Position numbers and translations under genes: made by a program. The notes under the pieces are model-generated. The model worked only from the letters and a program-made list of their open reading frames with translations. It searched no databases and was not told where the DNA came from. Shown piece after piece: positions 8,669 to 36,705 of a DNA stretch of 64,000 nt (positions are counted from its first letter, which is position 1; every line of letters starts with the position of its first letter). The stretch is from positions 2,790,001-2,854,000 of the forward strand of contig NW_026570227.1 in the NCBI RefSeq assembly GCF_019649055.1, read 5' to 3'. The stretch is from Paramacrobiotus metropolitanus. Taxonomy: Eukaryota; Tardigrada; Eutardigrada; Parachela; Macrobiotidae.

Positions 8669-11600
8669 CTATGCAGTAAATGTTTTGACTTTTAAGTCGA
8701 TGGGCTTGCGACAAATGGGGCACAGGCTCAGTTCTTGCGCGCAGTCCATACAGGCTACCATATGGCCGCACGGGACGAATGTTGTATTCTTCGGTCGATC
8801 CTCACATATACGACAACAATTGACATCCTGCGATCCGCTGGCCCCGCCCTCATTGTCCACTAGGTAATTTATAAAATAACCTGGTCACAGAACGGACTTA
8901 GTGCAGACAGAATTTGCACTGCTATTACTCAGTTTCCCCAGATCATGCGTTCGGTTGGTTTTCCCATATGCCATTGCCAGCGCCATAGAAACCGCTGGGT
9001 CTTTGGTGGTGGTGAGCGCACCCCTCCAGGAAGCGAACAAGCAGCTCCCATTCGGCTACACAAGTTAGCATTACTTACATGGATAATCTTATGCTACCTC
9101 AACTCGACAAGCAGAAAGCACAGAAATCAAGAAAACTAACCAAAGTTTTTGTCCAACGGAATCATCGAGCAGACCAGTTTATATTTCGTAAATCGACCCG
9201 CTTCTACAAAATATTGCAGTGCCAGAACCAGGTCACCCGATGCCAGATAATCTTCGCCAACTGTCGCTAGTAAATCTGGATCGCGACTAAGGAACGCCAA
9301 CTGTTTGATATCGCCGAGGTCTTCGGTTTTGTTAGCCGCAACCAGCTGCATAACCAAAACAAAAGTGCACTTTAACATTTTTAATGGTAATAACAACAGT
9401 ATTTTATGAAAAACTTGGAGAGTTTGGCTTAAGTAACTACGGGGAAAAGATGGATTTCTATGCGCCAGACCTGGGCGGCTTCTTTCCAGAACTTCCCTCT
9501 GACCAATATATCTTTGGCAAGCCGTAGCATTCCTACTTGGACGAGCACGTCGGCAACCGTACACGGATCATACGTGTATAATTGGTCGCTGAATAGCTTT
9601 TGAAATTTCGCTGCAGGATATCCACTTCGTAGTAAAGATCGAACAGCTTGCTTCTGCAAATATCTGTAAAGCTGACTTTTTAGCCAGTAATCGAGCGGAT
9701 ATGCTTCTTCAAACTGTAACTGGCCATACCGGATCTGGTCTTGATCGACAATTTTGGGAAGTAGTCGGCGGATAAGCGTCTGGGTCTCAGATACCAAATC
9801 TGTTTCGGCCATAGTTTCAATGAGCACCGCCACTTGTTCAAAATCACCAGAAGCTGCCTCATAACCGGCTTCCGGTTGGCCCACCATAACGTTAACCAAG
9901 TTAGAGCGTTTCCCGTTAACCGGACTCAAAACGCTTTCCCAAAGGGCTTTACTACGTAAGTTTAACAGGTAGTTAAACTGACGTTTGAATACACCGAGAT
10001 TGCCGCTCAACTGCAAACAAAAAGGCAGTGACATGGAAATATTAAAAACGTATGATAAAAAGCATTCAATAACTACGCGTATTGTGCAAAAGGCGGGAAT
10101 ATGTTTCTGGTGCCCTAAATCATTTTTAGGCATTCCATATCATCGAGTAGCAGCGCCATCATTGGCAGTAATAAAAGCTAAAATCTCTAACCGGAAAAAA
10201 ATTATTGCTCACCCGGATGAAATCTTCACTAAGGTGTCGTTCTTCATACACCGACAACGCTGTCATAGGCCACTTCTTCTCTTCGCACCATTGGCCAACG
10301 GCAACGGCATCATAAAATTTATTGTTCCTGTAAATAAAGTGAGTTTCACGGACGAAGGAATTTTTCTTACCGGCAAAAATTATATCAAGATGTACTACTG
10401 CACAGTAAAAAATGGCAACCGTCGACAAATAATGGTTAATGTGCGATATCTGCTCGTGTGATTCGTTGCCGCAATTACTTCAGAATTTGATCCAGCTTTT
10501 CGCCTCCCATGTTTTCAATGTACATCTTCACCAACTGAGAATGTACACTTTCATCTGGAACGCCTTTTCCTGCGAGATATTCCAGAAAGCTCATCGTTGT
10601 TTTCCTAGGGAAAAGTAAAACAGGATCAAACGACGGCTCATATCCAAGCCGGCTCTCTTGACACTGAGTAGCGGAAAAGGTTTCTACGCTCGTTTTCCGT
10701 ACCGATTTCCTTTCTGCTCTATCGATTGCAGAATGTCAGGATAGACGCCTCGTAACATGTTGACCGTCAATCCAAGGTTCAAATTCATCTCAAGTGCAGC
10801 TAGATCGGCGTTATCGTTTAGAAGAATTTCGATTATCAGGCGCAGCTGCTCCCTGGCTTCCTGTGAAAAATTATTTCAGACAGTTTAAAAGACGATGCTT
10901 GGTCGCGGGCTTGTTTGTACGTGTATTACAAAAGGTACCTCAATCGGCAGTTTCTCTAATAAAAGGTTCAGTCGCACCGGCCGTCCATTGCGTATTTTGT
11001 GCGTAACGAGTTTGACGATAAGGCCATATTTAATGCACATTTTTTCCACCAGTTCATCCACGGCACGTTGCACGCCAGTTGTCACAGTTTCCGACAGCAG
11101 GCTATCTACTACGCTCTCCGGGTGTAATATCTTACTCTGGTTGGCAATAAAGTGAAACTCCAGGATCTGTATGAGACCATGTTGCAGAGCCACCTGCACA
11201 AAATATCGCCCGCCGTAGAAATACCTAGAGAAACTAGATACACGGGCGCTTGCAAGCCTTACTTTGACGAGTTCCAACAAAGCACTTTCCGACATCTTTT
11301 TCGGCGATAGAGACTTTAGAAACGTGGGAAGACCTAGGAACAATAACCCAGCTATTTAAGAAATAAGTTTAAAATTTAATTTTATTAATGCGGTTAACAG
11401 CAATTCTAAATTTTCGTGAGTACTCCCGTACCAATCGCCCACAGTATACTGCGTACGCTTGCAGCGGTAAGAAATACACAATTAATATGCCGTTAGAATT
11501 GTGCTTACATTCTTTTTTAGCGTTGCGCGTTTTGCGCTCAAACATGGCGATCAAAACATCCAAACCAGCTTTCTCGCTAAGCTTCATGGCGAGATGGCCG

Positions 11601-14600
11601 GTAAGCATAAGCTGGTGAGGTGTGGGTGGAACTATATCCACAGCCCATCCAAACACATCTATCGCCTGTTCGGCCGACAAGTGCACCGCATTCAGCCTTA
11701 GAAAGGTCGCGAAGTCGACCGACTCCATGTCGAGCACGACACTGATCACTCGCATAAAGGTGCTGTTCTCCATGGGAGCACTTAACCGCAATGCATATTT
11801 TCCGGCTTCCATTGGAAGATTCTTGTCCAACAAAGTCGCAATCAAATGGTCGAACGATAGACTGACCCTTAATACCTTAAAGGCAGAAAAAAGCGTTTTT
11901 GTTCGCAAGCGTTTCTGCTTGTTGTTCGTTGGCGGAGCGCAGTTCAGTGTCTTAAGGGAAAGGACACGATACATGGTGCCACTGATACATGATAACCGAA
12001 ACTTTGCTTTCGCGCAGTCTGAATCATGTTTTAATGGTTATATCTCATTCCGAAACCGAATTCTTTGTATACACTGGACAAGAAACCGTTTAAGGTGCGC
12101 GAAATCCGGTAACTGAGGTAGTTGGCAAATTACTGTAAATCAGATTTCGAAGCATTTTTGAGCATCAAAAGTCAGGCTAATATCCGATCTTTTGGAAACT
12201 TGGCTGTACTGGTAATAGGCCCATAGGCCATAGCCACCTATAAAGATTCCGATCCAAAAACCTGGTCGATAACACCGCTGCTCAACGTTTCTGAAGATGG
12301 TACCGATTGATTGGCCCGCGCTGAACCTTGGATTCGGATTCGGAGTTGGATTACTCAAACTTGGATTCGGATTACTCAAACTTGGACTTGGATCTCTTAA
12401 CTTGGATTACATAAGTTGGATTACTTGACTTGGATAAGTTGGATTACTAAATTTGGATCACTTAACTTTGGTTACTAAACTTGGATTACGTTTTTTTGTG
12501 TTTATTCTCTTTTCTCATGGTATTCTTAGGTTTCTTAGGTTATTCTTAGGTTTCTTAGGTTTCAGGTTACCTAAGAAACCTAAGAAGCCTATACCCTGAG
12601 AAAAGAAAAGAATAAACACGAGCGGTAAAAAAATAATTCACGCCCAAAATATGTAGATATGTATGTAGTCCAAGTTTAGTGATCCAAGTTAATAAACCAA
12701 ATTAAGTAATCCAACTTATCCAGGTCAGGTAATCCAACTTTTGTAATCTAAGTTAAGAGACCGAAGTCAAAGTTTGAGTAATCCGAATCCAAGTTTCAGT
12801 AATCCAATACGAATGGAATCCAAGTTAGAGTAATCAAACTCCGAATCCGAATCCAAGGTTCAGCGCGGGCCCGATTGATTTGTACTGAAAAAAGTAAGTG
12901 TATGACGTGCTATTTCCAAAAACGGTGAACTACGATTACGATAGCAATCAGCATGGAAACAAAATTTGAACGAGCAAGCTGGCCTTGTACAGATTGGTTA
13001 TAACGGGATGCGGCGCATTGTCTAGAGGCTACAGCGCAGAGTTAAATTTGCTCTTAAATTTTGTTTTGGTCGCGTCCATTTAGTAGCAGATAAAATAAAT
13101 ATTTTTGCTTCTTCAAATGTTTCTGTCTCTTCCTGCAAAATATGTAATGTTCTGGTATTTAGAGCTAATGACGGGACCCTGGTTAGAATAAGACACTTGA
13201 GGCTACACGCTTACAAGTTGTAATACGAAACGGAATTCGGATGCGCGAAGCAAGTTTCCGTGATTGCATAATATGATACTAGTACCATAAACCATGTATC
13301 GTGCTATTTCCCTTCCTTTAAGGGAAATGGCACGTTCTATACATCGTGTCAATTTCAACGGCAGTGTTGGACTTACTAATCCGTCACTGCTAATAACAGT
13401 CAGACCTCCAGAAGAATCCGCGCCACGTGCAACGCAGTTGGTGCTCTCGCCTTCGGCTAATTTCCTGGAGGCTAAGTGGCGCATGCTCCGATAGTCAACC
13501 AAATGGACATATCCCATTTTGGTGGTGATAAATGCCAAGGAATGATCGTCCATGGGGTGTAACTATAGGAAATCTCTTATTGAAGGCTTCATACAATTGA
13601 CATGCGCATCCGTTAACATAGCTACCGTTACGGCGATTGGAATATCATTTTCCGTTCCCTTGGCGTCCATGGGGCACTTGATTTCAAGAGTAGAGGTTTT
13701 GGTGTTCGAAAAAAACACCTCCCCGTACCCTAGACGAAAATGACGATACAGTACAAGTATGCGGTGGTTGTTATTGCTTGTGACAGTGTGGGCGATTAAA
13801 ACAGCGATGTCGTCCATCGGTTGGGGCGGCAAAAAAGCAGCTGCGAATCCTGGAAAGGTTGCGGAAGTTTTCTTTTTCATGTGGAATACTTCCACGAGAC
13901 CCCTTGCTTGATCCACCTAGGAAGTACTTAATGTAATAGTTAGTATCAGAGCAGTGTCTGACTGCAGTAACTTCGCTTCAGTTTTTGTTTTCTCAACGAA
14001 AATAAATTTCATCGTCACACGTAAGAACAGCATGCATACGTCAAGCTTGACCGCTGTCAGGAACGACCACCCCTCCGAGCGGTTTATTTGATAATCGGTG
14101 ACGCTGTAAGTTCCCGCACCATCGTCCTCGCGAAGGCAACTCCAGCTGACGTTCCAGCTCTTAACATTCATATGAGTAACTTCTCTATTTGTTATAACTG
14201 CAATGCAGTTGAGGTCTATCCATTTAGCGAAATCCACGAATGATGCAATAACTGTCTCCTTTTCGAGGATGATTACTCGCAGCACGTTCGCAGCATCTAC
14301 AGCATAATATTGCTATTTACTGTAGTATTTACCAGAGTTAAATTCATTTCGCATTAGATACGCTTCTTTATCCGTGTTATTTCGATTTTGCATACCATGA
14401 ACCAGAGCCCGATCGACGACGTAAACACTTTGACATAAACGAATTTCTAATTAGCTGCTCCTGTTTTAATGCAGAGCAACTTTCCGAGATACATAATATT
14501 GTGGCATCAAAATCTTTAAGAACAGCAGTTTAGAATCGTCAAATTAAATCGTTAGCTATCACTAGTGGTAGTGAATTCTGTTGATTTACTGGATTATAAA

Positions 14601-16219
14601 TTATAATGCTGCTGATATGATTGTACGTACGTACGTACATTGTTGTACGTTGTACGTTGTTGTCGCCTTTCTCCTAATGTCTAGAAATCCCATCTTAATC
14701 TTGAAATTCATGATTCTCTTTGTACTCTTCTTGCCCAATCTCTTCGTCAAAACCTTTCAATAAGAAACCTAGGGTAGTTATAAACTGAATGTGCTGTTGC
14801 TTTTCACCGCTTGGGTAGAACTAGCGTCCTGGGACCTGACCAGTGTCCTGGCAACGCTGCCAGTAAATATCTGTGTTTGGTTGTTGCTGTGTTGTGTTGC
14901 TGACTTAGTTGTCATTCGATTAAAGATCAGCGCAGGTCAATACGTGATATACAACGTTTTCAGCCTTCAGGCCGCCCGGCTGACGGGTTGTACCAAGTCT
15001 ACATTACTTACAGTACAGCCGCATAATCGTGGTAAAAATTGAATTCCACTAGAACAGCCAGCCAGATAGGCGGCTTTTACAGCAATATTAGTTTAGGAAT
15101 TTGACCAATTAACTGGCTCAAGCAGTCAAGCTGCATGAAACTAGTATTGGTTCATCTGCAGATCGGAGCTTTGTTTCAGCCATTGTGTTTGTCAACAGCT
15201 AACAAACGGCCCGATCATTTCGGTACAGGCATAATTGTTTCGGCCAAAGGTCATTCATTCAGAAATTGCATCCGAATTACAGCCAAAACACTAATAAAGG
15301 GATGAAAAAAAGAGCTACGCGACAGGTGGTCTCGGGACATTTCGTTTTACGGACATTTCCTCTAAGGACAACTCGTTTTTGTGGCAAATAGTTATATGAT
15401 TTTTCGTTGCCATAAACCGTTCGATAACTTTTGGACTCCCAAAAAGTCGGGCGACCAAATGTCACACAACAAAACGGCTGCAAAACGAGTTGTCCCAAAA
15501 CAAATTAGCGGCTGTGACGAAGAACGTGTAGCGAAATATCCCACGACAAAATGCCCCGCGACCACTTGGGCTGCCACGGAAAAAAAGCAGTCGTAAAAAA
15601 TAACTACTCATAGTATCTGACCTGACCCACCTTGAATGAAGCAAAACTCGCCATTTGGACTGTGAGTGGCACTAACAATACGGTCCCGCATGCGATGTCG
15701 TTTGAAGTCTTTGCGGGTCACTTGAGGGGGAGAAGCGGCCAGATCGAGAAAGAACAGGCTCGGGTTAGACCACAGATCTCCCTGGCTGGCAACCGTAATA
15801 CTGTGCTCTGACGCCATTGTAATGCTTTTCCCGCTGTTCCATTTCGAATTAATCAGTTCGGAAATCTGTTGCGACAAGCACTTGCCATCACGGGTGACAG
15901 GTTGAATTACATGGGCTCTCTGCGATATTTTTCTGATGAATCGTTCAGTATCTAAGTAGCTATCGTTCAATAGTGCTATTAATTATATGATCACATTACT
16001 AGAGTACTACAGCTTTTCTGTGCTTTAAAATATTTGTCCATTCAGTATCAGCACAATAGCTAAATCGTAGCAACTAGGTAGGTTTTGTACTTATTTCTGT
16101 AGATTTCTGTACTCTGTAGATACTTTCGGCGCATTGTACAAAGCAACAGTAATGCAGCCCGCTTCAGCATTTACCTTAGCAAGTGTCGTCACCGAAAGCA
16201 CAGGACAAGAATCTGCCAT
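8669..16219 (-). CDS. Clathrin heavy chain-like protein with C-terminal RING, copy A (frameshifted before the RING)
   Basis: Sixteen exons in transcript order: 16175-16219, 15631-15865, 14040-14296, 13626-13916, 13377-13562, 11509-11875, 11263-11333, 10939-11193, 10703-10860, 10479-10604, 10213-10327, 9730-10010, 9471-9663, 9141-9345, 8929-9055, 8669-8859. Every junction is GT-AG, and phases agree with copies B and C. Exons 1-5 (about 338 residues) match the clathrin terminal propeller (MGYVHLVDY; family YGYIHLYD). Exons 6-15 match leg repeats (KFYDAVAVGQWCE, LWESVL). Exon 16 is a C3HC4 RING with all ligands. In exon 15 a run of four Cs (plus strand, 9021-9024) replaces three in B and C. The frame shifts after FLEG and stops at 8943-8945, which would remove the RING. 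Unless this is a sequencing error, the product is about 965 residues of clathrin-like part only. Corrected length is 1,033. Intron 5 carries a foldback element. Confidence 0.82.
9021..9024 (-). other. One-base insertion site in exon 15 of copy A
   Basis: The plus strand reads GCGCACCCCTCC here against GCGCACCCTCC in copy B and GTGCACCCTCC in copy C. Exon 15 is 127 bases in A and 126 in both others. A homopolymer indel of this kind is either a real null mutation or a consensus error. Confidence 0.85.
11952..12118 (+). repeat. Diverged arm fragment of the 53.7 kb foldback element
   Basis: Begins TTAAGGGAAAGG and shares ordered blocks (ACATGGTGCC, TTTCGCGCA, CCGAAAC, TGTATACACTGG, AACCGTTT, ATCCGGT) with the left arm of the inverted repeat at 53714-54401. 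Its left end coincides with that element's terminus (TTAAGGG). It lies in intron 5 of copy A. Confidence 0.65.
12313..12871. mobile_element. Foldback MITE with 9-bp target duplication, copy 1 (Mutator-like by TSD length)
   Basis: The element is 559 bp. It starts GGCCCGCGCTGAACC and ends with the exact inverse. The inverted repeats run most of its length, with internal TTGGATTAC/GTAATCCAA sub-repeats and a central palindrome of TTCTTAGG/CCTAAGAA units. It is flanked by CGATTGATT at 12304-12312 and 12872-12880, a perfect 9-bp target-site duplication. It sits in intron 5 of copy A and has no coding capacity. Nine-base duplications with long terminal inverted repeats are typical of Mutator-like elements; that class assignment is an inference. 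Confidence 0.9.
15321..15570. mobile_element. Candidate 250-bp terminal-inverted-repeat element in intron 2 of copy A
   Basis: The left end (CAGGTGGTCTCGGGACATTTCG) and right end (the inverse of CAAGTGGTCGCGGGGCATTTTG) match with a few differences. Internal inverted blocks also pair (GGACAACTCGTTTT). No clear target duplication is seen, so boundaries are approximate. Confidence 0.5.
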
Positions 16220-17273: not shown

Positions 17274-17282
17274 GCGTATTTG

Positions 17283-17864: not shown

Positions 17865-18080
17865 GCGTATTTGTGTTTTTTTTGGATTTGTTTGGCTGCA
17901 AGCGTATGTGATTGCTAATTTTTGAATTCATTAAAGAGAGCTAAATCACAATTAACGTGACTGTATGGCATTTTCCAATATAATATATTTGACAGATAGC
18001 ACCGCCGCATAAACAACAAACGTTCATCGCGCTGATTACCTAACCCACTTGTTTTGAAGTATGCTCACGTATTTGTATAA

Positions 18081-18139: not shown

Positions 18140-18159
18140 TACAAGAAACGGCCTCGGCT

Positions 18160-19957: not shown

Positions 19958-22900
19958 CTATACACTAAACGTTTTCACCTTCAGGTCGATCGGCTTGCGA
20001 CATATGGGGCAGATGCTGAGTTCTTTTGCGCAGTCCATACAGACTACCATATGGCCGCATGGGACGAATGTCACATTCTTTGGCAGATCTTCACATATGC
20101 GGCAACAATTGACATCCAGCATTCCGCTTGACCCGCTTTCGTTGGCCACTTGATGATGTACGTAATACGGTCATGATATGAATCAGAACAGTCAGAATCT
20201 GAACCGCATCTTACTCAATTTCTTCAGATCGTGCGTCCGGTTGGTTTTCCCATAAGCCAGTGCCAGCGTCACACAAACCGATGGGTCTTTAGTGGTGGAT
20301 AGCGCACCCTCCAGAAAGCGAATTAACAGTTCCCATTCGGCTAAATGTATCCCATAAACAGTTACCTCAACAAATAAAAGCCCAAAGATTCTTAGAACAC
20401 TTACCGAAACTGCTGTCCAACGGCACCATCGAGCAGATGAGTTTATATTTTTTAAATCGACCCGCTTCCAGAAAATACCGCAGTGCCAAAACAAGTTCGC
20501 CCGATTTCAAGTAATTCTCGGCGACTGTCGCCAGTAACTCCGGATCACGGCTAAGAAAAGCCAGTTCCTTGATATCGCCGAGTCCTTCGGTTCGGTGAGC
20601 CGCAACCAACTGAATAATTAAACAAAAGAAGCAGTTTCAAGAATTTACTTCGTAAGGAACCGCTGATAAGAATAGAATCTATGTTAATCATGAAGAGTCG
20701 GAAAACAAGCATATCCATGTGTTGCGGACCTGCGCGGCTTCTTTCCAGCATTTTCCCTTGACAAGTATGTCTTTGGCAAACCGCAGCATTCCTCCTTGAA
20801 CGAGTGCCTCGGCAACTATGCACGGATCATATGTGTATAACTGCTCGCCGAACACCTGCTGAATTTTCTCTGGGGGATATCCACTTCCTAATAAAGATCG
20901 AACGGCATGCTTTTGCAGAAACCTACGAAGGGAATAATCAGCTTGTACTTATGAAGACACGCTTTATTACTGAAACTGGCCTTACAAGATCTGGTCTTTG
21001 CCGACAGTTGTGGATAACAGTCGGCGGATGAAGGTCTGGGTTTCGGATACCAAATCAGTCTCGGCAATAGTCGCGACGAGTACGGCCACCTGTTCAAAGT
21101 CGCCAGAAACTGTGTTGTAGCCCGCTTCTGGTTGATGTAACATAATGTTAACCAGGTACGCGCGTTTTCCATTGATCGGACTCAGAACGCTTTCCCAATG
21201 GTCTTTACTGCTTAACTTTAGGAGGTAGTTAAACTGACGCTTGTATACACCGAGGTCGCCGCTCAGCTGCAAACAAAAAATTTTTATGGTCAGAAAACCA
21301 GAACGCCTCCAAAAAGCAGTACACGCAAAACAGCAACGAAGATACTACTCTAATCTGAAAAGAATGACGCAGATGTGCCTGCAGTGAAAGCGTTTGGCAG
21401 GTCACATGTTCTATTTAACAATTTTTAACTGCTTAAACGTTACTGCTCACTCGGATAAAATCTGCACTAAGGCGTCGCTCTTCGTATACCATCAAAGCCT
21501 TAGTCAGCCAATTGTTCTTTTCACACCATTGGCCAACGGCTACCGCATCATAAAATTTGTCGTTCCTGAAAGACAAAGATGACAGAAATTTCTGTAGAAT
21601 CCAAAAAATATTTTAGCTTATTGCATGGCAAAGGAAATCTTTGACAAGTAAAGCGTAATGCTACTCGTACGATTCGTTGCCGCAATACCTCAAAATTTGG
21701 TTCAGCTTATCGTCTTCCATGGTTTCAATGTACAGCTTCACCAGCTGAGAATGCACGGTTTCATCGGGTATGCCCTTTCCCACAATATATTCCAGAAAGC
21801 TGGTCGTTGTGTTCCTAAAACGTAATACAATAAGTACCACGGAATGATTGCATGTTAACGGACCCCTTTGGCACTGATCGGCGGAAACTGTTTTCCATCC
21901 GCTTTCCGCACCGCGTTTCATTTTTCTTTAGGGATTGAAGAACGTCAGGATAGACGGTTTGCAACATGTCAGCGGTCAGTCCCAAATTGTACTTCACCTC
22001 CAGTGCACCCAGATCAGGGCTATATTGTAGAAGAATTTCAATGATCATGCACAATTGTTCCTTGAATTCCTGCAAACATACGCCTGGAAGATTTAATGTG
22101 AATGCGTTTAATTGGAGATTACCATAATCTCCAATTAAACCATTAATTGGAGATTACCATAAGAGAAGAGGAAATTACCATAATCATACAAATACATCAA
22201 CTTTGTCGAACGGACTTTGCTTACTTACTGTTGTAGGCTGATGCCGTGCTATCGTTCGAAATGCACAAAGAATCTACACGACATACCTCTTTTGGCATGT
22301 TTCCAAGCAATTCGTCTAGTCGCACCGGCTGTTCGTTGCGCACTCTGAGCGTTACGAGATGTATGATGAGACTGTACTTAATGCACAGCTTTTCCACGAG
22401 TTCATCCACGGCATGCTTCGAACCTGGTGCAGCATTTTCGGACATCAAACAATCTATTACCGAATCCGCAAACAAAATCTTGCTGTTGACGGTGATAAAA
22501 TGAAGCTCCAGGATTTGTATAAGACCATGCTTCAAGGCCACCTGTACAGACCGCAGACCATTGTAGATTCGTGGGTGGTACCTTGACGTATAATTCGGGA
22601 TTCTTGCAAATACAAAACATACTTTGACAAGTTGCAATAAAGCACTCTCTGTCATCTTCTTCGGCGCCAGAGACTTCAGAAACATAAACAGACCTAGGTA
22701 CAATAACAACCTATTATCTACTAGCCGGGAGTACTGACGTTGTTCTCGCTGTTATGACAAGAAAGTTGTGTTTACGTTCTGTGTTAGCACTGCGCTCGAA
22801 CATGCTTATTAAAACGTCCAAACCAATTCTGTCGCTAAGCTTCATGGCGAGATGACCGATGAGCATAGAATGATGAGGAGTGTGTGAAGCCATATCAACT

Positions 22901-25900
22901 ATCCATTTAAACATCTCCTTGGCTTGATCGCCCGATAAATGAACCACATTCACCCTGAGCAGGGCGCAGATGGTTTCAAAGTCCACCGTCGCGCCGCGTA
23001 CAACATGGACCATCCGCATAAATATGTCGTTCCCCATTGGAATGTTCAGCCGAACTGCATACTTTAAGGCTTCCAGCGGAAGATTTTTACTTAACAGAGT
23101 CGCTACCAAATTATCAAGGGACACGCTGACCCCGAATACCTGGAGCGAAAGGAGTGGTTACAACTCTAACTCGGTGGTCTTCGGTTAGTGACATACAGAA
23201 TTATCGTCTCAAGCTAGGTAAAACATGTACAGAGGGTGATTTTGCAATGTGCTTCCAGTTTCTTTATGAATTGATAGCCATTATCTCCGTGCATGTTTTA
23301 CTCTTGAAGCCTTTATGTCTGAAAGCCCTTTTTCTTAGCGATTATTACAAACTGATTTTAAGAACAGAAAACAATTTAGAATACGATGGGATTTTAAAAG
23401 GGTCTGTGCGCGACACCAAACAATTCGCAAAAGGTTGTCCGGTGCTTTCCATTAAACATTTGCCAAAAAATCGCTATTAATCCTTAATCTATGGATGCCA
23501 GGTTTAGTGAACTCTAACAACATCTAGCTTCGTGAGATTCGAGGCACTGGCACGTTTTGTCAGCCCGGGTGAAATGGAAGAGAGCCATTTTGATTGCTCC
23601 CCTTGCGTTCTCCTCGGGCTACAAATGCAAATTGCTTTTCGAGAAGTTATTTAAGCGACCTTTTAGTATAGACATCCGCGGTGGTTTTAACACTGGGAGG
23701 AACCAAATGCACTGCCTTAATATTCCGGTAAATAATTTCGAAAGACAAACATCATTCGTTTTGATTTTTAACTAATTTTGAGTTTTGTTTTTACGATACT
23801 TAAATATGGCAACACGGCATTCGTGTCTCCCGCCCAAATAAAGAAGCTACATCTGCGCCTCACCGATAGGCGATTGCGACGGTCTATGTCAAACTTCAGA
23901 TAATAAGGAAACAGGCAAATAGAATTCCTCGTAGAAAATTTGTTCCAGTTTGGAAAACTGGGCATTCTGCTTTAAAATCACTTTGGAGTGCCACTAACTT
24001 CGTTCTTCGAATTCAACGAATGCAGTCTAATGATGAAGTCTAATCATGAATTATCATATCAAGCACATATTGAAGTATTTTTAAGTGACAAGAAGTAAAG
24101 GAAAGAACAAGGAAGAGAATTACTGCAACTTTGTGTCCGTGCTGGAAGCATATTGCGAAATCACCCTCTGTGCATGCATACTCGTACCGGTAGGTACAAT
24201 ACAATGTACACAGAACGTTGATTCTTAGTGAAATTTTTGAACTCACCATCCCGTCACTGTTAATTACCATCACACCCCCAGAAGACCGCGCGCTGTGCAC
24301 AACACAATTGGTGCTCTCATCTTCGGTCAACTTCGTGGACGCCAAGTGGCACATCTTCCGATAATCAATCAGATGTACATAATTCATTTTGGTGGTGATA
24401 AATGCAAACGGCAGTCCATTTGTGGAATGAACCTGTAGAGACCGCTTCAAACAATGCACTCGAAAGGCACACATAATTCACGGTCGCTTAAGTACCGTAA
24501 CGGCAATCGGGAAGTCATTAACCGCTCTGTTTGTATCCAATGGGTTCTCGATCGCAAGGGAAGCATCTTTGCTTAAACTGTCATACCCTGGAAACTGAGC
24601 GTCCGCTAATGTGAGAGACGTGACAAGGATGCGGTTCTTGCTGTTGGGAACGGTGCTGGCGACCAATACAACGTCGTCATTCGCCGCTAGTGTCGGCGCA
24701 AAAGCAGCCGCAAAGCCATAGAAGGTTTTCGAAGTTCCTGATTTCAACTGGAATACATTCACGAGGCCTCTTGCTTGGTCTTCCTACGAGGAAAGAGGTT
24801 GTTAACATCAGAACTTTCCTCATCGTTGCATCCCTTGCCGCGTGTTTATTTCCAAGAAAAATTATTTCCGCATACGTAAGACCAGCGGGCGTACATCAAG
24901 CTTAATTAGTGCCAGAAACGACCACTTTCTCGAATGGCTTAGCTGATAATCGGTGGCAGTGTAGCATTTCGCCACAACCTCGTTGCGAGAAATACTCCAA
25001 CCGACTTTCCCGCTTAACGCTTCCATGTGGATAATTTCTTGTTCCGTTAGAATCACTGCGTTAGTGTTATCAATCCATCCAGCGAAGTCCACCGATGGTA
25101 CGGTATTTTCGGGCCATTCGGCAATTATTTCCTTTTCTACTGTGCTCACTCGCAGAACACTGCCAGCATCTACATCATAAATTTAGGGCAGTACAAAATA
25201 TGCATTACGCTATTAGTATTATTTAGATTTAAGGAAGTAGGTTTGGCCAGTCGGAAGACGGTTCAGTGCAGTGCGCAACAGGATCAAAAGCGCATAATGG
25301 CCAGCACTGGCTTCGAACGGGGAAGAAAACCGAACCATCTACCTTTGTAAAACCGAACCATCTACCTTTCGTAGGTTTTCTTAGGCTTTCTACCTATGCT
25401 ATGGCAGGCATTTACATAAAATTTGATGTCCTGTATATGTACATATGCCCTCTGCCAAACTGCCCTGGACTAATGAGAGTCGGTATGACTGAGCAGTAGA
25501 TTTATAGGTAGGTTCTTGACCGCGTCTGAATGCTTGCATTCAGCAGAAATTGACGTGACAAGTGTCACTCACGGTGTCTGTCTGAAGCACTATCCTGCTA
25601 CCGACGGTGAATGGTTGGGCGCCGACTCGCAGTTCAATTTGAGCATAGCATGCCAAACTACTGTAGTCAAATGTTTCACCTATGGCACGGTTAGTACACG
25701 TTAAATTTTTTTGACTTGTTTCCACAGTATCCTACTATGAGGAGGAGCGGCCTCTCTGCACACCCGCGCTGGGGTGGCTGTTAGGTTGTTTTGCCTATCT
25801 TCTGCTGATTTTCTCCATCTACCAGACTTTCAAATCTGGTACATATACTTTTATTTTATATAATAATATACTTTATTACTTATACGAATATTTTATGTAC

Positions 25901-28001
25901 TGGTACATGTACTTATTATAACAGAGGCAGCCATAAGTCGGCAGTCCGTGATGATCTCAGCGAGGGAGGGCGGTCAGATGAAGATCCTGTCTGTTGAGGA
26001 AATTCCGAAAAATGGCGATGGAGCGGAATCGAACCGCTGGCTACCGAGTGAGATCCACGTATGCTAGCCACTGTGCCATCGCCGCTGTTGGCGAAGATCA
26101 AGATATTTGTGCTTGAGCTTGAGCCAACCAGGTAGGCGGCGGATGGGCGGCTGCTGTGTGTAAAGAGGATTCTCCTCTTACATTATCTATAGATTTATAA
26201 ATCGCTACGTCTTTATTCCAAGAAAATTAACTCCTAATTCCAGATTAAACTTTTAAAGTTACTTTAATTTTTCAGAAAATATTTTATGATATTTTCAAAT
26301 GCTGGCCCCGTGCGGCGTGGCCAATACCTCCATATTTTAGCATTTTTGCGTTTAAAAAAACTTTAAATTATTAATATTTGAACAAGGATTTTAATTACAG
26401 TAACGCAGCTGCAGTAATTACAGTCAAATAATATTTACGAAACATTTCCACAAAACAGGCGATATATTTCCACATTCCTAATTTTTAAACCGAAACCCCA
26501 TACCTTAAACTCAATTGAGGGCGCGCTAGCGCGACCAGCCTTGTATTATTTCAGTAGCTTGGCTCCGTCGTCTAAGCTGTTTGCTTATCGGTTGCCCCGC
26601 AGAATGTGCGGATGCCTCTGTGCTTTGTGTGAGAGGTGATATAAACGTGCAGTGTGTTGGCGTTAAGTTCCCGTTTCTTTTCGTCTAGGGTTGACCTAGC
26701 CACTCATCCCCTGTTAGACTACCGTATCCGACAGTATCTTCTACTATCCTTTAAAATTACTACTCGTACTTTTTTTAAATTTCTGCCGTATCCCAACGTA
26801 TCGCTTCAGTATCCTTTGTGTATTCTGAATGGATTCCACTAGGAAAGAAAAGAGATACCTGAAGATACTCGACGGATAAATCAAGGATCTGGTAAGATAC
26901 ACTGGGATACAGCAGTTACCGATGAGCGCTAAAGCTGTATTCAGTAGCATACATGAAGGATACGTAGAGGATTTTATGCCCTCGAAGGTGATACGCTTGC
27001 AAGTATCAATTACGCATGGGTAATATAAAATATTGTTAAAGTGGACATTCTTTTTAACTACGAGTAGCGTATTCTACAGTATCCCTCGTGTATGCTCAAT
27101 GCATCCCGTTAATGTTCTTAGGTTCTTCGGGTTTCTTATGTTTTATTAGGGTTTTTGTGGGATACATGTATACGTTTGTATACGGCAATGAACAAAACGA
27201 AGTCAGGAAATTGTGAGGATGCATGAGGAATACATAGAGGATACCGTATGATACGGTGGGATGGTGGTATGGCTGGACATACATTAAAGCAACGAGCTTG
27301 GAAAAATTTAACGGGTACGAAGTCGTCCATATCTAAAATAATTTGATGCACAATATGTTACTATATATAACTCTACAGCATGCTAATACTGTTCGCAGCC
27401 GTACTAGGCAATACAGATACTGTCAGATAGCAGAGCCTGGAAGATTTGTATGGCTTTACATTGTGTGCAGATACTCACTTAGAACGAGGCACACTTTCCC
27501 GTTCGGACTGCGGGCGGCACTGATAATGCGGTCTCGCATACGGCCGCGTTCGAATTCAGTTCGGGTCACGTTAGTCTGTGAACCTGCTAGTTGAATGAAA
27601 AACAGACTTGAGGCGGACCAAAGATCACCCTGGCTGCACACCGTAATGCAGTGCTCGGATGTCATCGTCATGCTTTTTCCGCTGTTCCATGACCGAATCA
27701 AATCGGAAATCTGTGGAAGTAGATCAGTGCATACATTGCAATCATTTTTATAACACTGTGCTTTTGCTACAATATCCTCACAAACCACTCATTACTCAGT
27801 TTCGGGTTATTGTTCATTCTCGTACATCAGTCGAAGTCGAGATTTCGAAATAACAGTCCTATCGATATTAGTATTTCCGGTAAAAAATCCTCATTACCTT
27901 TGCAGATATCTGAAAATTTTATAAAGAAACGATAATGCAGCATGTCATCGCTTTACCTTCGCAACTGCCGCCACGGAAAGCCCGGAACCAAAATCTGCCA
28001 T
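19958..28001 (-). CDS. Clathrin heavy chain-like protein with C-terminal RING, copy B (intact)
   Basis: Exons in transcript order: 27957-28001, 27479-27710, 24895-25169, 24496-24783, 24247-24432, 22776-23139, 22623-22693, 22287-22541, 21912-22069, 21689-21814, 21451-21565, 20986-21266, 20730-20922, 20405-20609, 20215-20340, 19958-20148. They sum to 3,111 bases (1,036 residues) with no stop and GT-AG borders throughout. The N-terminal 340 residues follow the clathrin terminal domain (SEHCITV, DYQLSHSRKWSFLALIK, MNYVHLIDY). The middle follows clathrin leg repeats (KFYDAVAVGQWCEKNN, LWESVLSP, ALAYGKTNR). The end is a RING (CRICEDLPK, CGHMVVCMDC, CPICRK) closing with KTFSV. The RING suggests an E3 ubiquitin ligase; the propeller would bind cargo or adaptor peptides. 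Clathrin's trimerisation hub and light-chain-binding region are absent. Introns 2 and 5 are enlarged by insertions. Confidence 0.85.
23224..24176. repeat. 35-bp inverted repeats bounding about 950 bp in intron 5 of copy B
   Basis: The left arm (23224-23258, starting CATGTACAGAGGGTGA) and right arm (24142-24176, its inverse) differ at three positions. They are probably the ends of a non-autonomous DNA element. No target duplication is obvious, and no transposase is seen between the arms. Confidence 0.55.
26015..26082 (-). tRNA. tRNA-Glu(CTC)-like sequence, probably a pseudogene or SINE head
   Basis: On the minus strand a 7-bp acceptor stem (GCGATGG/CCATCGC) and a perfect 5-bp T stem (AGCGG/CCGCT) with loop TTCGATT can be drawn. 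The D loop has AGTGGCTA. The anticodon loop reads ATCTCAC, giving CTC (plus-strand 26050-26052). The anticodon stem has two mispairs and the D stem is weak, and the base after the acceptor stem is C. This fits a decayed tRNA-Glu better than a working gene. It lies in intron 2 of copy B. Confidence 0.45.
26680..27260. repeat. Degenerate GATAC/GTATC-rich repeat in intron 2 of copy B
   Basis: Words such as AGTATCC, GGATAC and GATACG recur in both orientations. One pair of diverged direct segments reads CAGTATCCTTTGTGTATTCTGAATGGATTCC (about 26808) and CAGTATCCCTCGTGTATGCTCAATGCATCCC (about 27076). It explains why intron 2 is 2.3 kb here but 0.2 kb in copy C. Confidence 0.5.
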
Positions 28002-29054: not shown

Positions 29055-32000
29055 TTAGGAACTAAATGTTTTGATTTTTAAGTCGATTGGTCGGCGACAT
29101 ATGGGGCACACGCTCAGTTCTTGGGCACAACCCATACACGCCACCATATGGCCGCACGGAGCGAATGTCACATCCTTTGGATGATCCTCACAGATACGAC
29201 AGCAGTTGACGTCTTGCGCTCCCCTCGATCCGCCTTCACTAGTCACTATATAATAACAGAGCACACATTCTGGCCGTAAACAAGTGACGGTGGAGAGTTC
29301 ATATTGCTTTTTACTGAGCTTCTGCAGATCGTGCATGCGGTTGGTTTTCCCATATGCCAGAGCTAGGGTCACCGAGAGCGAGGGGTCTTTGGTGATGGTA
29401 AGTGCACCCTCCAAGAAACGTATGAGCAGTTCCCATTCGTCTACATACAAGCTGCCATCATTCACAGCAAACAATCTTATGTTATTCGGGGTTCAAGAAG
29501 TTCTTATGCAATTCCCAGAAAATATTAGAAAATCCAAAAAAGGCTGACCAAAATTGTTGTCCAGCGGTACCATCGAGCAGACGAGCTTATACTTCGTAAA
29601 TCGTCCAGCTTCCACAAGATATTGCAATGCTGGAGCCAGTTTGCCTGATGCCAGATAACTTTCGCCAACAGTCGACATGAGATCCGGATCGCGACTTTGG
29701 AATGCCAGTTCTTTGATATCACCGAGGTCTTCATCCTTGTGAGCCACAACCAACTAAACGAATATATGGGAGAAAGCATGTAAGTGCAAGGCGTTCATAC
29801 GAGCCGGGAACGAATTCACTTCGTCAAGGCAAGCTGGCTACCAAGTCCGTAAACGGTCGAAATTAGTAGTCAGCTGTAGATGGATCGGGATGTGCCAAAA
29901 TACTTATGTACGCGCGGCGCGCCGATCCGGATGATGAGCACGCAAACGTACAGCTATTACATTATAAGCGCTATGATAGCGCTTAGCACGATGGCCACTA
30001 CACTATGTTTGCCACAATGCATAAAGGTGCTGCGCAGTAAGATTGGCCCCTACTGTACCACCTTCCGCCAGGCAGCTACGATTATACTAAAAATATAAGG
30101 CGTGCACCAAGCCACCAGCCAGCGAAACGCATGTTACGTGTTTAATCAGTGTGGCGTGGCGCGGCGTAGTATGTTGTTTGGCGTGACCCATGAATTTACA
30201 TTTTTCGTGCTCATCATTCGGACCGACTTGTACAGGATGGGAATCAGGGATATGGCGATACGTATAATTACAGAAACCATCGACGATTGCCGGTTAAGCC
30301 CGTTAAGATAATCATCGATGGACATGGTATCCAGCTTGTCTTGACGACGCGTAAACGACTCGATCGAAATAGTGGTGGAGGTCAATTACATTTGGGTAAC
30401 TGTTGCGCGTCGGGTAATGGAGAGCCGCGTAAAAAATTTGCCATGACTCAGCAGAAAAACAATCGTCCAATCGTGAGTCGAGTACGCTTCCGTGCCAAGA
30501 AAGAAATTGAACACCGTAGTGGAACTGAAAAACTCCTTTTTAATGCTGTAATGTGGTAAATGTGGTATCACGTCAAAAAAGTTAATTATGAGTTTTGGAT
30601 TGTGACTCTGGGTCGTTAGATTTACTTTTGGTCCAAACACAGACAAATTTTGTTAATCTGTGCAGGAGAGTTACGAGTTACTCGTAGTTTGGGTAATGGT
30701 TGCGCTTCGACGTCGAAGCGCAACGCTTACGCGGACAAGTAAGCTGAAAACCCATCCCAGATTTTGTGACTGCGAATCAGAATGTTTGCTTGGTTACGCG
30801 CTGTTACGTCACATTTTTTACGCGTTTTCCCGTTACCCGACGCGCAACGCTTACCCAAATGTAATTGACCTCCACCAGTATTACTTGGAAAATTTACGAA
30901 TCGCGGAAGCAATGGCCAAAAGAGTTCAAGCAGAAACGTGGGTGCCGACAGATTAGTATGCAACAGACCTGTGCTGCTTCTTTCCAGCATTTTCCCTTGA
31001 CCAGTATGTCTTTGGCCAACCGCAACATTCCGCCTTGAACGAGCACTTCTGCTACTGTGCATGGATCATACGTGTCTAGACTCTCATCGAACCGTTGTCG
31101 AAATTCCTCTGCTGGGTATCCACTCTTCAATAAACAGCGAACGGCATGCTGTTGTAGGAACCTGAAAGCAGGAGCGACCTTTACACTGCCACCAAACACG
31201 TTCCACTGATCACAAACTGTACCCACCTGATGTGTTCCGTACTGACAGCTTCGATCAGTAGTTTGTGAATAAATGCCTGGGCTTCCGATATCAAATCAGT
31301 TTCGGAAAGAGCTTCAATGAGCACGGCAAGTTGTTCAAAATCGTCAGCAGATGCCTTGTAACCGTCTTCAAATCGGTCCATCATTATGTTAACCAAGTGC
31401 CAGCGTCGTTCGTTAAACGGAGTCAAGACCCGTTCCCAGAGGACTTTACTGCGTAGCTTTAACAAGTAGTCAAACTGACGCCGAAATTCCTCCAGGTAGT
31501 CGCTTATCTGTAGGTAGAAATCCATTTATTGAAAGGTCAAACTCATTACCATTAAAGAAGTGTATAAGCGTATGAGAGGTTACTACTGTTAAAAGCAGAA
31601 TACACTATACGTCTACAAGGGAAAATCCAGCGTTGTCTCTGTTAAACCTAAAGCGTCACACCAGGATGGTGACGTTCTGATGAGGAAATCTTCCACTTAC
31701 CAGTTAGGAGCATTTCGTTAACGAAAGAATAGGTTGCGTGTAAAGGGGAATGTAAATAACGTAAATACGCATAAGGTACTTGTACTTTCAGTAAAAATGT
31801 AAGTATGCTAAGCGTAAGGTAACCGCCAATGCCAATAATATTAATTCGTAAATTATCGAAGTCAGCGTGAGTAATCTATTTCGACAAAATAAATTGCATA
31901 CCCGGATAAAATCATCACTAAGCTGTCGTTGCTCGTAGACCATCAGCGCTTTAGTTAGCCACCTGTTTTGTTCACACCACTGTCCAACAGCCGCGGCATC

Positions 32001-35000
32001 GTACAGTTTATTGCTCCTGAAAATGCAGACGATTGAAAATTGTCTCCACATCTAAAAATCCGACCCTTTAAAAACTAATGGCGATTAAACATTCAAGTAA
32101 ATAAACATATTTATAAGTGGCGAAGCGTATATGCTCGTGGTTCGTTGCCGCACTATGCATTCACCTAAGAATGCGATCCAAATCTTCGCCTTCTTCCATG
32201 GTTTCAATGTACAGCTTCACTAGCTGAGAATGAATGGTTTCATCGGGAATGCCCTTTCCCGTGAGATATTCCAGGAAGCCGATCTTTGCTGCCCTGCAGA
32301 GGAAAACTTTATTTGGAAAATGGAGTTACAAGTCGAGAAAACCAGCTCTTTTGGAAATGATAGGCCAAACCAGTAATTCCAGCCCTCACCACTTTGCATC
32401 CTCATCCAGCGACCGAAGGACGTCGGGATAGGCGGCTTGCAACATGTCTACAGTAAGTCTAAGATCGTGCTTAACCTCCAGCGAAGCCAGATTAGCGTCA
32501 ACAGTATTTAGAAGAACGTCGATGACAAGACACAATTGCTTCTTAGATTCCTGTGAAACACGAACGCGGTAAGTTTGATGTAGATTTTTTATTCGCAAAA
32601 AAGCGATGCTTCGACTATGCCTACATTTTTTTATCACTGTTTTGCGTCAGTTTTACGTCAGTTGAAGTAAATTTTTCAGCGCATGGCTATATGGAAACTA
32701 CAGTAGCTACACTGTATTACAAAATGTTGCTTCACCGCTGCCTTAAGAAAATACATTTCCGAGAAATACCATTCGCGGAAATAAGACTGTTTTCAATATT
32801 TGTCGCACGTTTTATGAGATACTCATAAAAACTGTACCTTTTTCGGCAACTTTTCAAGTATAGCGTCCAGTCGCACGGGTCGTCCATTGCTTATTTTGTA
32901 TGTAACGAGTTTCACGATAAGGCAGTACTTAATGCAGAACTTCTCCACAAATTCATCCACGACAGACTGTACACCGGGTTCCACAATTTCAGACAGCAAG
33001 CAATCTAGTACGGCATCCGGGTGCAACTTGCTCTGGTTTGCAATAAAATGGAGCTCCAGAATTTGTATGATGCCATGTTTAAAAGCCACCTGCCGCAAAC
33101 CAGCGCAATCGGGGCGGTTAAATTAGAAATCTTAGGTACGGTACTTCACATAAATATCGAGCGCTGGCAGAGTACGAGGCTTACTTTGACAAGTTTTAAT
33201 AAAGGGATTTCCGGCATATTCTTCGTTGACAGGGACTTGAGAAAGACAAACAGGCCTAAACACAATAACGCTGTTATGTAATATAATTATATTTCATTTG
33301 TTTTGCAATACTCGCTATTTATGCCGGTAGTATTTCTGCGTGCAGCCAAATCACTACAAAAAGATGGTATGATGCCTTGTCCCATAACACAACTCACATT
33401 GAGCGGTTCGTTCGAAGCCTGCATGCAAAGCTAAACGTATTAGTATGGCCGACTTATATGGCGCAACGCACTGCTCGTCGACAGAAAACACAGGTTTAGT
33501 GACTACTGCACCGTTTTGACCGCTAAATAAAAAAACCAGTTGCTTTGACTGATTCTGCAATCAGGACATTTTAGATGCCTGCGTCCGCGCGACGTACTCA
33601 TGTTGTACACCAACTTTAACACTGACAGATCGAGTTTAACGATAGCAAGTACTTACTATAGTGTGAGGAGGACTGGTAACCAACCGTTTGACGTCATCAC
33701 TCTCGCATACACGTGAGGGCGGCTGCCATGGTGACAGATGCGCGTTTTTCACGGTTTTTGTCAGTTTTCTCAGCCGATTTCTGTTCTCTTCTATTTTTAG
33801 CCCTCGAAATAAAAGTTTCTATATTCATTATGGTCTTTTAAAAATATCAGTAAGCTTTTGATGAGAAAGAAACTTCAGAATATCTATTAAAAGGGACAAC
33901 AAAGGCTGTGGGACTATGGTACGCAGTAGCACAGCAGTGCTTTCTGTATGCGACAGTGATGACGTTGTCGACCGTTGCACAGCAGTTACCAGTCCTTCTA
34001 GCTATAGTAAATTAGTAAGTTCCTGATGATATTTAAAAAAACCAACATGGCAGCTGATTTTGGCTTACATTCATTGCTAGCCCCGTGCTCGAACAGAGGG
34101 ATCAAACTGTCCAAACCGATTTTGTCGCACAGCTCCATCGCGAGATGACCGAGTAGCATGAAGTGATGGGGAATGGATGGAGCCACATCAACCGCCCATT
34201 TAAACACCTGGACGGCCTGATCGGCCGACAAATGAACCGCGTTTAGCCTGAGGAAGCCGCAAAAGGTCGCAAAGTCCAGCGTCATGCCGCCTACAGCGGG
34301 GACTACGCGCATAAACGTTTCGTTCTCCATGGGAACATTTAACCGTATTGCGTACTTCCCGGCTTCCATTGACAGATTGTTGTTTAGCAGAGTCGTTATC
34401 AAATGGTCAAAGGAAACATTAACTCCAAATATCTTGAAAGGTAAAAAACGGCTTTTGAGTTTTGCTTACCAAAGTTGATTATAAAAAATCGTTTGAATAC
34501 CACAACAAAAATAATGCAATATAGTATGTACTCTGTACGTATATCCGTAAACTCGGGTAATTTTTGTTTGATTTTTTACCGACCTGCAGTTTGACACTGA
34601 AGTCCTCCTTACCTGGTTGTCTACTCCTGATGCATTAATGAATGAATGAAAGAGCCTATTTTCAATAATTTCCCCCCAACCATTTTTTTCCCGAGTTTGT
34701 GTTTTAACGGGTTCAGGAAACATCTGTTTATTTAGCTCTACTTGACCCCTCTGTGGCTTGCTTTGTCGCCCGCACGCAGGTAGCTACGCCACACGGGCCG
34801 CTCACATATCGCTAAATAGTCAGCGCAGCCGTTGTCAGCATTAGTAAGTAAGCTCTGTGCTGCTGCATTCATGATGGGCGTGCCCACTGCGCTTCAGCAT
34901 TTTGCCCACGCTTTACGGCACAACTGATCCTCAGCCGAGGCACGCCGGAGCCAGACGTTCAACCGTTGATGGCTGCGGTGTTCGGCGTAACACGAAGCAA

Positions 35001-36705
35001 CTGATGCGCTTCGGACGCAACCACAGTCCCCTTCGTACTCATCGTAAAAACTCGCAATAAAATTTACAGACTTACTGTTCCTTCACTGGTAAGGATCACC
35101 GAGCCTCCAAAAGAGCACGCGCTGCGCGCAGCACACAAGGTGTTCTGCTCATCAGTTAACTTTTTGGACCCCAAATGGCACATATTCCGATAATCAACCA
35201 AATGAACATATCCCATTTTTGTGGTGACAAATGCCAGAGGAAGATCGTCCATGGGATGTGGCTATAGAAAAATCATTAGACAATGCGCCGATTACGGCTG
35301 TCAGGCACGTAATTTTATGTCGTAATAGCCTTTACGTACCGTTATGGCAATTGGAACATCCCTAGTCAGTCCGTTTCCGCCCTCGGAGTAATCTATCTCC
35401 AGAGTAAAGGTTTTGGTGGCTCCCGCATCAACAGAAAGCTGAGAATACGCAAGCGGGCGATACTTAATGAGCACACGGTGCATGTTGTTGGTGATGGCGG
35501 TGTCGGCGACCAAGATAGCGTCTCGGTTGTTAGTCGATAGTGGGGGCACGAAAACAGCCGCAAATCCGGCAATGGTTCGGCAAAATTTGGCCTCCGTGTG
35601 CCACACCTCCACAAGACCTGTTGCTTGATCCACCTAGGGAAGGTCACTCAGTGGTAAACTGGTAACCCTTAACGCTTGTCAAATTCGTCGTTGTTTAAGT
35701 TATGGTTGCGTCGAACACAATTATTCCGCCGCTCATAGAAAAGGGGACTGCATCAGTTTGCATGCGTACATCAAGCTTAACCGCTGCCAGAAATGACCAT
35801 TGTCTTGAGCGACTCATTTGGTAATCGGTGACGGTGTAGCTCCTGGCTGTCACCTCTGTACGAGAACACATCCAACCGACTTTCCAGGTCCTCGTATCCA
35901 TATGGTTTATATCTTTCTCCGTAAGAACGGCAAAGCACGTGTCATCTATCCATGCAGCGAAATCTACCGATGCCACGGTAAACATCTCGTCCTCCAGGCT
36001 GAGCACCCGTAGTAACTTGGCAGCATCTACAGGATAAAGTCGAGTGGTAGTTAACCAATCTTTAATTATTCAATTTCTCCGGTATAATGCCATAATTTTG
36101 CCAATTTTTCTACATAATTACATTAACGGGTTGATACGATTTAACATAACAGCAGTTAAGCGTAAACAATTACATCTAATACAGTAAGGCGCCGTTGATA
36201 GATTTAGCATGTGTTTCGTTTTCCGCTCACCCTGAACGAGGCAGAATTCCCCGTTTGGACTACGGGCGGCATTGACGATACGGTCCTGCACACGGTGCCG
36301 TTTAAAGTCTGTGCGGGTTACATGTGGCTGTGAACCGGCCATATTGATGAAGGACAGACTGGGGTTGGACCAGAGATCACCCTGGTCGCACACTGTAATG
36401 AGGTGCTCGGATGTCAAGGCCATGCTTTTCCCGGTGCTCCATTTCCACGGAATTAGTTCGGGAATCTGTTGCGGAAGCCAAAAGCAAGAGCAAAACAAAA
36501 TTTTATGTACAAGGTATACTCGCTCAGTTGTGAAATCAACATCAAATCGCTCAGTTGTGAAATCAACGAAGATCAGCGAGCTCGCAAAAAGTTCTGCCGA
36601 TAGTATTCGCACTGATACATTTCGCTTCAACGTTGTAGATCTGAGCGGTACATTATTTACCTTTGCAATTGTCGTCACCGCAAGCACGGAAGAAGAATCT
36701 GCCAT
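29055..36705 (-). CDS. Clathrin heavy chain-like protein with C-terminal RING, copy C (intact)
   Basis: Exons in transcript order: 36661-36705, 36231-36465, 35770-36026, 35340-35633, 35076-35261, 34069-34432, 33185-33255, 32838-33089, 32390-32550, 32165-32293, 31902-32016, 31227-31507, 30969-31161, 29549-29753, 29315-29440, 29055-29245. They sum to 3,105 bases (1,034 residues), open throughout. It is the clearest copy against clathrin heavy chain: DYQMSRSRQWSFLAAVKLD, MGYVHLVDYRNM, KLYDAAAVGQWCEQNRWLTK, LWERVL, and EWELLIRFLEG with ALAYGKTNR. The RING spans about residues 987-1025 (CRICEDHPK, CGHMVACMGC, CPICRR), and the protein ends KTFSS. About 180 residues expected between the propeller and the first leg repeat of clathrin are missing. 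Intron 13 is 1.2 kb against about 0.12 kb in A and B because of insertions. Confidence 0.87.
29880..30385 (-). pseudogene. Possible remnant of a membrane protein in intron 13 of copy C
   Basis: The minus strand gives hydrophobic runs (VVAIVLSAIIALIM, LYVCVLIIRIGA, IIRIAISLIPILYKS) separated by stops and frame changes. It could be a decayed multi-pass membrane gene carried in with an insertion, or chance. No family is recognised. Confidence 0.2.
30373..30877. mobile_element. 505-bp terminal-inverted-repeat element in intron 13 of copy C
   Basis: Both ends read TGGTGGAGGTCAATTACATT inward, followed by GTTGCGCGTCGGGTAA; the arms extend about 70 bp with few mismatches. An inner palindrome (GCGCTTCGACGTCGAAGCGC) lies near 30720. 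It has no coding capacity and no clear target duplication. Confidence 0.7.

Follow-up and report, generated by a model that had tools for sequence, protein, structure and literature searches.

A candidate RING E3 ligase family built from a duplicated clathrin heavy chain gene in the tardigrade Paramacrobiotus metropolitanus

Clathrin heavy chain coats vesicles, and this is usually presented as its sole task. In Paramacrobiotus metropolitanus, a member of the tardigrades, which are known for stress tolerance, three neighbouring genes encode a clathrin-like propeller and leg repeats and carry a RING exon at their end, and the question raised by this locus is whether clathrin itself has been turned into part of a ubiquitin ligase. 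The window, i.e. the whole stretch of DNA that was analysed, comprises 64,000 nucleotides. Exons were placed with GT..AG introns, and the resulting gene models were compared with RefSeq proteins. The features of the locus are shown in Table 1.

Gene structure and descent from clathrin heavy chain

All three 16-exon genes of the original prediction were placed on the minus strand, with the predicted outer limits at 8669 and 36705, the part that did not hold being the RING of gene A, which is out of frame. Exon 15 of gene A (9055-8929) has 127 bases compared with 126 in B and C, and due to this frameshift gene A, as assembled, stops ahead of its RING. The RefSeq protein P0003 matches the gene A model as far as this early stop. 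P0002, listed in RefSeq as "clathrin heavy chain 1-like isoform X2", is identical to the gene C model (1034 aa), and P0001 starts 23 codons upstream of the gene B model, giving 23 extra residues, and is otherwise identical to it.

Table 1 Features of the clathrin-RING locus. Positions are those of the window unless a contig is given
Feature	Position	Strand	Description
Gene A	8669..16219	-	16 exons; LOC129582166 (P0003, 965 aa)
Gene A exon 16	8669..8859	-	RING; own reading frame open
Gene B	19958..28001	-	16 exons, 1036 aa, intact; LOC129582247 (P0001)
Gene B exon 16	19958..20148	-	RING
Gene C	29055..36705	-	16 exons, 1034 aa, intact; P0002
Gene C exons 1-5	35076..36705	-	clathrin-type terminal propeller; profile matches clathrin 71-373
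Gene C exons 6-15	29315..34432	-	leg repeats, approximately clathrin 658-1200
Gene C exon 16	29055..29245	-	C3HC4 RING of IAP type (PF13920), with KTFSS as C-terminal tail
Copy D exon 1	162..206	-	91% identical to exon 1 of gene A
Copy D, remainder	C7:2780313 to left window edge		LOC129582254 (P0005, 533 aa)
RING-exon relic	2544..2731	-	lies in two frames

A PDB search with the single gene C sequence matched clathrin heavy chain with an E-value of 1.1e-32, and with a profile of four family members clathrin heavy chain was the best match (E 1e-55), followed by IAP-type RINGs; E-values of this size rule out a chance resemblance to clathrin. The profile covers clathrin residues 71-373 and then 658-1200, in order, and the four clathrin anchors named in the original prediction (including YGYIHLYD/MGYVHLVDY, LWGSVL/LWESVL, FALAKTNR/LAYGKTNR and YDAAAVGQWCE) all fall in order in the clathrin heavy chain alignment. 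A clathrin-like propeller and leg followed by a C3HC4 RING were thereby recovered as predicted, the former by the profile match and the latter by PF13920 in B and C. The clathrin match stops at about residue 1200 and is followed by the RING and a stop codon; the end of the proximal leg, the light-chain region and the trimerisation hub are absent from the family. Replacement by the RING at the point where the proximal leg and hub would follow was correctly foreseen, and to it has to be added an internal loss of about clathrin residues 374-657, which had gone unseen and whose site lies in gene C exon 6. Over the alignment the family is approximately 20% identical to canonical clathrin proteins. 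Matches in the Pfam scan were to the leg (PF00637) and the RING only, and Pfam's own clathrin propeller model was unmatched in the scan of models B, C and P0006.

A canonical clathrin gene is retained in the same genome on contig C5. Eleven of the 14 introns upstream of the RING junction coincide with those of this gene (eight by column and phase in an automatic alignment and three more, i1, i2 and i8, by inspection), and introns i6, i9 and i11 are absent from it, the canonical gene model used for the comparison being reliable only to about residue 1194. These common intron positions indicate that the family descends from clathrin heavy chain itself.

The family has lost the clathrin adaptor-site residues as well as the hub. 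Residues Q89, F91, Q152, I154 and Q192 of the clathrin propeller, named as adaptor-site residues in PMC5182127, are replaced in all five family rows and kept in the canonical protein, and the clathrin-, W- and arrestin-box residues are replaced in the family propeller. These losses bear on the possibility that the proteins modulate the ordinary clathrin coat, entering coats by the leg and ubiquitinating coat or cargo proteins there. Retention of the leg repeats of about clathrin 658-1200 and the presence of canonical clathrin in the same genome would suit such a role, which is nevertheless unlikely for a protein that has neither hub nor light-chain region and whose adaptor-binding boxes are replaced.

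An IAP-type RING at the C terminus

The RING matched PF13920 with E-values of 5.2e-13 (gene C) and 2.1e-13 (gene B), and BIRC7 (8.6e-13), cIAP2 (1.3e-12), cIAP1 (1.7e-12) and XIAP headed the PDB matches of that exon; a chance RING was rejected on the basis of these Pfam and PDB results. The IAP type of the RING had gone unnoticed in the original prediction. In 8/8 RINGs typed there are eight zinc ligands (C3HC4, IAP spacing), a linchpin Arg following the last Cys and a [KR]T[FY] tail; the frame-broken RINGs of C50-3 and of the relic did not form part of this set. The cIAP1 equivalents of the linchpin and tail residues, Arg606 and Phe616, are required for E2~Ub discharge according to PMC6349121. 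E3 activity of the family is what we infer from these sequences. No BIR domain (PF00653, E up to 1) was detected in model B (P0001), model C (P0002) or P0006. Among the RINGs of this genome that do not belong to the family, the closest lies at C5:3056810 (48%), and because no listed BIR adjoins it, an IAP gene is regarded as a candidate RING donor only.

The HOPS/CORVET subunits VPS11, VPS18, VPS41 and VPS8 have a propeller, a solenoid and a C-terminal RING in that order. A closer match to these subunits than to clathrin had been set beforehand as the refuting outcome, but clathrin heavy chain was the best match for both leg and propeller. No VPS chain was present among the matches listed (the best 60 of 77 for gene C alone and the best 60 of 100 for the profile), and the sole VPS signal was a sub-threshold match of P0006 to PF23356 (PEP5/VPS11 repeats) with an E-value of 0.035, scoring 13.8 bits where the cut-off is 27.5; a VPS origin was rejected on these two results. 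The common order of parts and the P0006 match could still suggest a tether or scaffold of the HOPS/CORVET kind, in which the propeller would bind a membrane or GTPase, the solenoid would form a strut and the RING would serve assembly and not catalysis. Such a role is distinctly improbable, as the Arg and tail aromatic residue for ubiquitin transfer are kept in every RING typed, constraint is strongest in the RING, and VPS chains are absent among the matches listed.

Copy number, selection and the exon 15/16 junction

The family is not limited to the three genes originally predicted: copy D starts in the window and continues past its left edge, the RING relic lies in the window, and further loci were found on contigs C22, C50, C206 and C278. 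This genome contains nine RING-bearing loci on four contigs, plus one fragment and one RING relic. Exon 8 of copy D is split by a 3.5-kb insertion, the genome search recovered one C50 copy without its middle exons, and the RING of another C50 copy is broken between frames. Together with the frameshift in gene A, these defects indicate that part of the family is decaying.

Selection acts on the family. The dN/dS values for exons 1-14 are 0.262 (A/B), 0.251 (A/C) and 0.315 (B/C), and those for the RING exon are 0.133, 0.138 and 0.053, respectively. That the cluster consists of functionless, decaying pseudogenes, as the frameshift in A, the interruption of D, the relic at 2544-2731 and the C50 copy without middle exons might be taken to mean, is highly improbable, since the reading frame runs uninterrupted through 16 exons in B, C and the C22 gene and dN/dS is far under 1 and lowest in the RING; a pure pseudogene cluster was rejected on the dN/dS values.

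In A, B, C and the C22 gene alike, 63-69 bases separate exon 15 from exon 16, and the phase is shared. The phase of the junction is identical in A, B, C and P0006, which is encoded on another contig, and the junction is predicted by RefSeq in three genes. Intron 15 of gene C (69 bases) is in frame and open (ORF 29492-29058), so the RING is encoded in frame there whether the intron is spliced or not. That the RING exon is a small gene of its own, downstream of a shortened clathrin-like gene, is scarcely credible, although the RefSeq model of A stops before the RING; this reading was rejected on the exon spacing, the common phase and the open gene C intron.

Proposed origin and comparison with known systems

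The genes probably form a family of RING E3 ligases that arose from a duplicate of the clathrin heavy chain gene and has given up the coat role. In the proposed course of events, the clathrin heavy chain gene would have been duplicated in a tardigrade ancestor, and the duplicate would have dropped an internal segment (about 374-657) together with all that follows about residue 1200, comprising the rest of the proximal leg, the light-chain site and the hub. Acquisition of one exon for an IAP-type C3HC4 RING would have provided a new C terminus, and the fusion gene would then have given rise to tandem arrays and to loci scattered elsewhere. The protein may act as a RING E3 whose RINGs pair to form a dimer, as in BIRC7 and cIAP1; the RING would recruit a charged E2, and the donor ubiquitin would be held by the partner's linchpin Arg and tail Phe/Tyr. 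The clathrin-derived propeller and leg would in that case form a substrate- or membrane-binding arm, not a coat strut. On balance, and with somewhat more reserve, we favour a single conversion of clathrin, which would have made it the arm that selects substrates in a dimeric E3 with an IAP-type RING. The new family would then have diversified in tardigrades, with nine RING-bearing loci here, and would have abandoned both coat assembly and the binding of canonical adaptors; it would have reached the propeller-solenoid-RING plan of HOPS/CORVET independently.

The original prediction knew of no described clathrin-RING fusion, and a search of the literature for such a fusion, or for clathrin in tardigrades, likewise yielded no description; the word "clathrin" is absent from the text of PMC11191345. 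Protein searches, in which approximately 8000 candidates were scored each and one of which missed P0002 despite its being part of the query, gave no fusion from another organism, a result that counts for little as a sign of absence. The same genome holds a canonical clathrin gene and a family with an IAP-type RING in place of the coat-forming parts. If its members are ligases, the family would be an example, dated and marked by introns, of a coat protein turned enzyme, and the propeller-solenoid-RING plan could come from clathrin and not from VPS tethers alone. With this family it can be tested directly what the propeller and leg of clathrin are able to bind once free of coat duty.

Compared with known systems, the family shares with clathrin heavy chain the ordered propeller and leg repeats and the placement of 11/14 introns, and differs from it by the loss of about 374-657 and of all past about 1200, by the gained RING, and by replacement of the adaptor-binding residues that clathrin keeps in its propeller. 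With the IAP-type RINGs of BIRC7, cIAP1, cIAP2 and XIAP it has in common the C-terminal place, a linchpin Arg and an aromatic tail residue (Phe/Tyr), whereas the three full-length members scanned are without the BIR of IAP proteins and the remainder of the protein is clathrin. The likeness to VPS11, VPS18, VPS41 and VPS8 lies in the order of propeller, solenoid and C-terminal RING, but the intron positions of the family track the clathrin gene, and the matches listed include no VPS chain.

Gene models and clathrin descent

The window lies on contig C7 of the tardigrade Paramacrobiotus metropolitanus (Eutardigrada, Macrobiotidae). Comparison of its open reading frames (ORFs) gave three homologous exon series on the minus strand, here called A, B and C. 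Splice sites were placed by hand and then checked, giving 16 exons apiece with every intron GT..AG and intron phases identical as far as exon 15. The C model (1034 aa) agrees with RefSeq protein P0002, the B model (1036 aa) is 100% identical to P0001, whose start lies 23 codons upstream, and the A model agrees with P0003, which ends at a frameshift. Clathrin-RING sequences are already in RefSeq as automatic models, C as 'clathrin heavy chain 1-like' and A and B as 'uncharacterized protein'. The three 16-exon genes of the original prediction were recovered, but exon 15 of A has 127 bases and that of B and C 126, and the reading frame of A therefore ends before the RING. Selection was assessed as dN/dS (Nei-Gojobori), which was 0.262 (A/B), 0.251 (A/C) and 0.315 (B/C) over exons 1-14, and 0.133, 0.138 and 0.053 over the RING exon, the last with saturated dS (2.84); exon 15 was left out of all three pairs because of A.

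A Pfam scan of the models found PF00637 in C (6.3e-28) and B (2.3e-24) and the RING PF13920, and no match to the Pfam propeller model. In a phmmer search of the PDB, C matched residues 84-368 and 674-1194 of clathrin heavy chain (E 1.1e-32). A four-member profile (P0002, P0001, P0003 and P0006, a member on contig C22) used with hmmsearch reached clathrin at 1e-55, over residues 71-373 and then 658-1200 in order, and the isolated terminal domain at 4.7e-21, with IAP RINGs as the second group of matches. VPS chains were absent from the best 60 of 77 phmmer matches and the best 60 of 100 profile matches, and VPS11 repeats gave a sub-threshold match in one member (P0006, E 0.035); the family descends from clathrin, as had been proposed. 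The proposed order of propeller, leg and RING also held, with the RING directly after the clathrin match stops at about residue 1200, but the clathrin stretch ~374-657 is missing as well.

The canonical clathrin gene of this genome, on contig C5, carries all 12 PF00637 matches listed; a crustacean clathrin query (tblastn) matched it up to residue 1624 of 1713, and the exon model of the canonical gene extends to about residue 1194. Eight of the 14 introns of gene C before the RING junction share alignment column and phase with clathrin introns, and inspection adds another three (i1; i2, allowing for an indel of one residue; i8, at equal distance to the next conserved Leu-Leu). The canonical gene does not share i6, i9 and i11. 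The RING junction itself is new.

Distribution in the genome and neighbouring features

A genome search with P0006 gave at least 67 matches, and clathrin-like exons with a RING exon occur at nine loci on four contigs. The internal loss is shared by P0006, and exon 6 is uninterrupted in the C50 copies; the loss is therefore older than the spread of the family. A 3,545-base insertion splits exon 8 of copy D. Its ends are inverted (AGGGTGTAAAACCTGGCAGTGGC...), a flank of ~9 bases is repeated and no ORF in it reaches 120 aa; by its looks it is a non-autonomous DNA transposon. Tandem arrays and dispersed copies, some of them decaying, suggest that the family turns over rapidly.

Of ten ORFs scanned, three have F-box domains; they lie in window 41836-62875, and look-alike ORFs close to them had no Pfam match. 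This region resembles a further ubiquitin-related tandem array, adjoining the clathrin-RING array.

Family loci and other features
Feature	Location	Strand	Remarks
D, A, B, C	C7		clathrin-like exons + RING exon
A	window 8669-16219	-
B	window 19958-28001	-
C	window 29055-36705	-
P0006 gene	C22		16 exons mapped exactly
Three copies	C50		clathrin-like exons + RING exon, from search matches
One copy	C206		clathrin-like exons + RING exon, from search matches
Fragment	C278		exons 2-4 only, within 9 kb examined
RING relic	window 2544-2731
Insertion in D	L009 (stretch holding D) 3676-7221
F-box ORF	window 45610-46500	+	PF00646, E 4.9e-7
F-box ORF	window 55152-56288	-	PF00646, E 3.7e-4
F-box ORF	window 61892-62875	-	PF00646, E 1.8e-7
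Two neighbouring ORFs	window 38727-39923		237 + 160 aa; no Pfam match; presumably resembling the end of a retroelement protein (our impression)
ORF	window 6217-7071		284 aa; sub-threshold immunoglobulin match, PF00047, E 0.066

Source of the RING

Among 114 genome matches to the RING exon, the ten best were the nine family loci and the relic; the eleventh (C5:3056810) is 48% identical, and lower-ranked matches adjoin BIR domains (e.g. C7:332639, C5:2757489, C72:465544). Because of the PDB ranking of the RING, an IAP gene is the likely donor. BIR domains are very numerous genome-wide (at least 150; of 491 first-look candidates, 150 were scored and all of these exceed the cut-off), and many have the same score while lying on different contigs. 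The IAP family has apparently undergone a large expansion or been dispersed by mobile elements.

Residue pattern and proposed function

All five family rows retain fold-type propeller residues, among them Tyr156 and the FWKW Trp. The canonical protein keeps the residues of the clathrin box (Q89, F91), the W box (Q152, I154) and the arrestin box (Q192), all of which are replaced in each of the five rows. K96 and K98, which we take to be clathrin-box residues, are replaced as well. E11 and Q14 of the Royle box are replaced in 4/4 rows reaching that far, and F9 is still F in P0006 (box names from PMC5182127).

Literature searches, in full texts that include few subscription journals and no bioRxiv preprints, yielded no description of clathrin joined to a RING or of tardigrade clathrin, and 'clathrin' was not found in the available main text of a P. 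metropolitanus transcriptome paper (PMC11191345). What the proteins have retained and what they have lost speaks against a coat protein and in favour of a RING E3 whose arm derives from clathrin; the RING is predicted to bind E2, and the protein would form a dimer and might choose substrates. Eight RINGs were typed, from A, B, C, D, C22, C50-1, C50-2 and C206; the frame-broken RINGs of C50-3 and the relic were excluded. In all eight, the eight zinc ligands show IAP spacing, the last Cys is followed by an Arg, and the tail reads [KR]T[FY]. In cIAP1, ubiquitin discharge depends on the counterparts of this Arg and the tail aromatic, Arg606 and Phe616, and the cIAP1 tail works on the partner's E2~Ub, according to PMC6349121.
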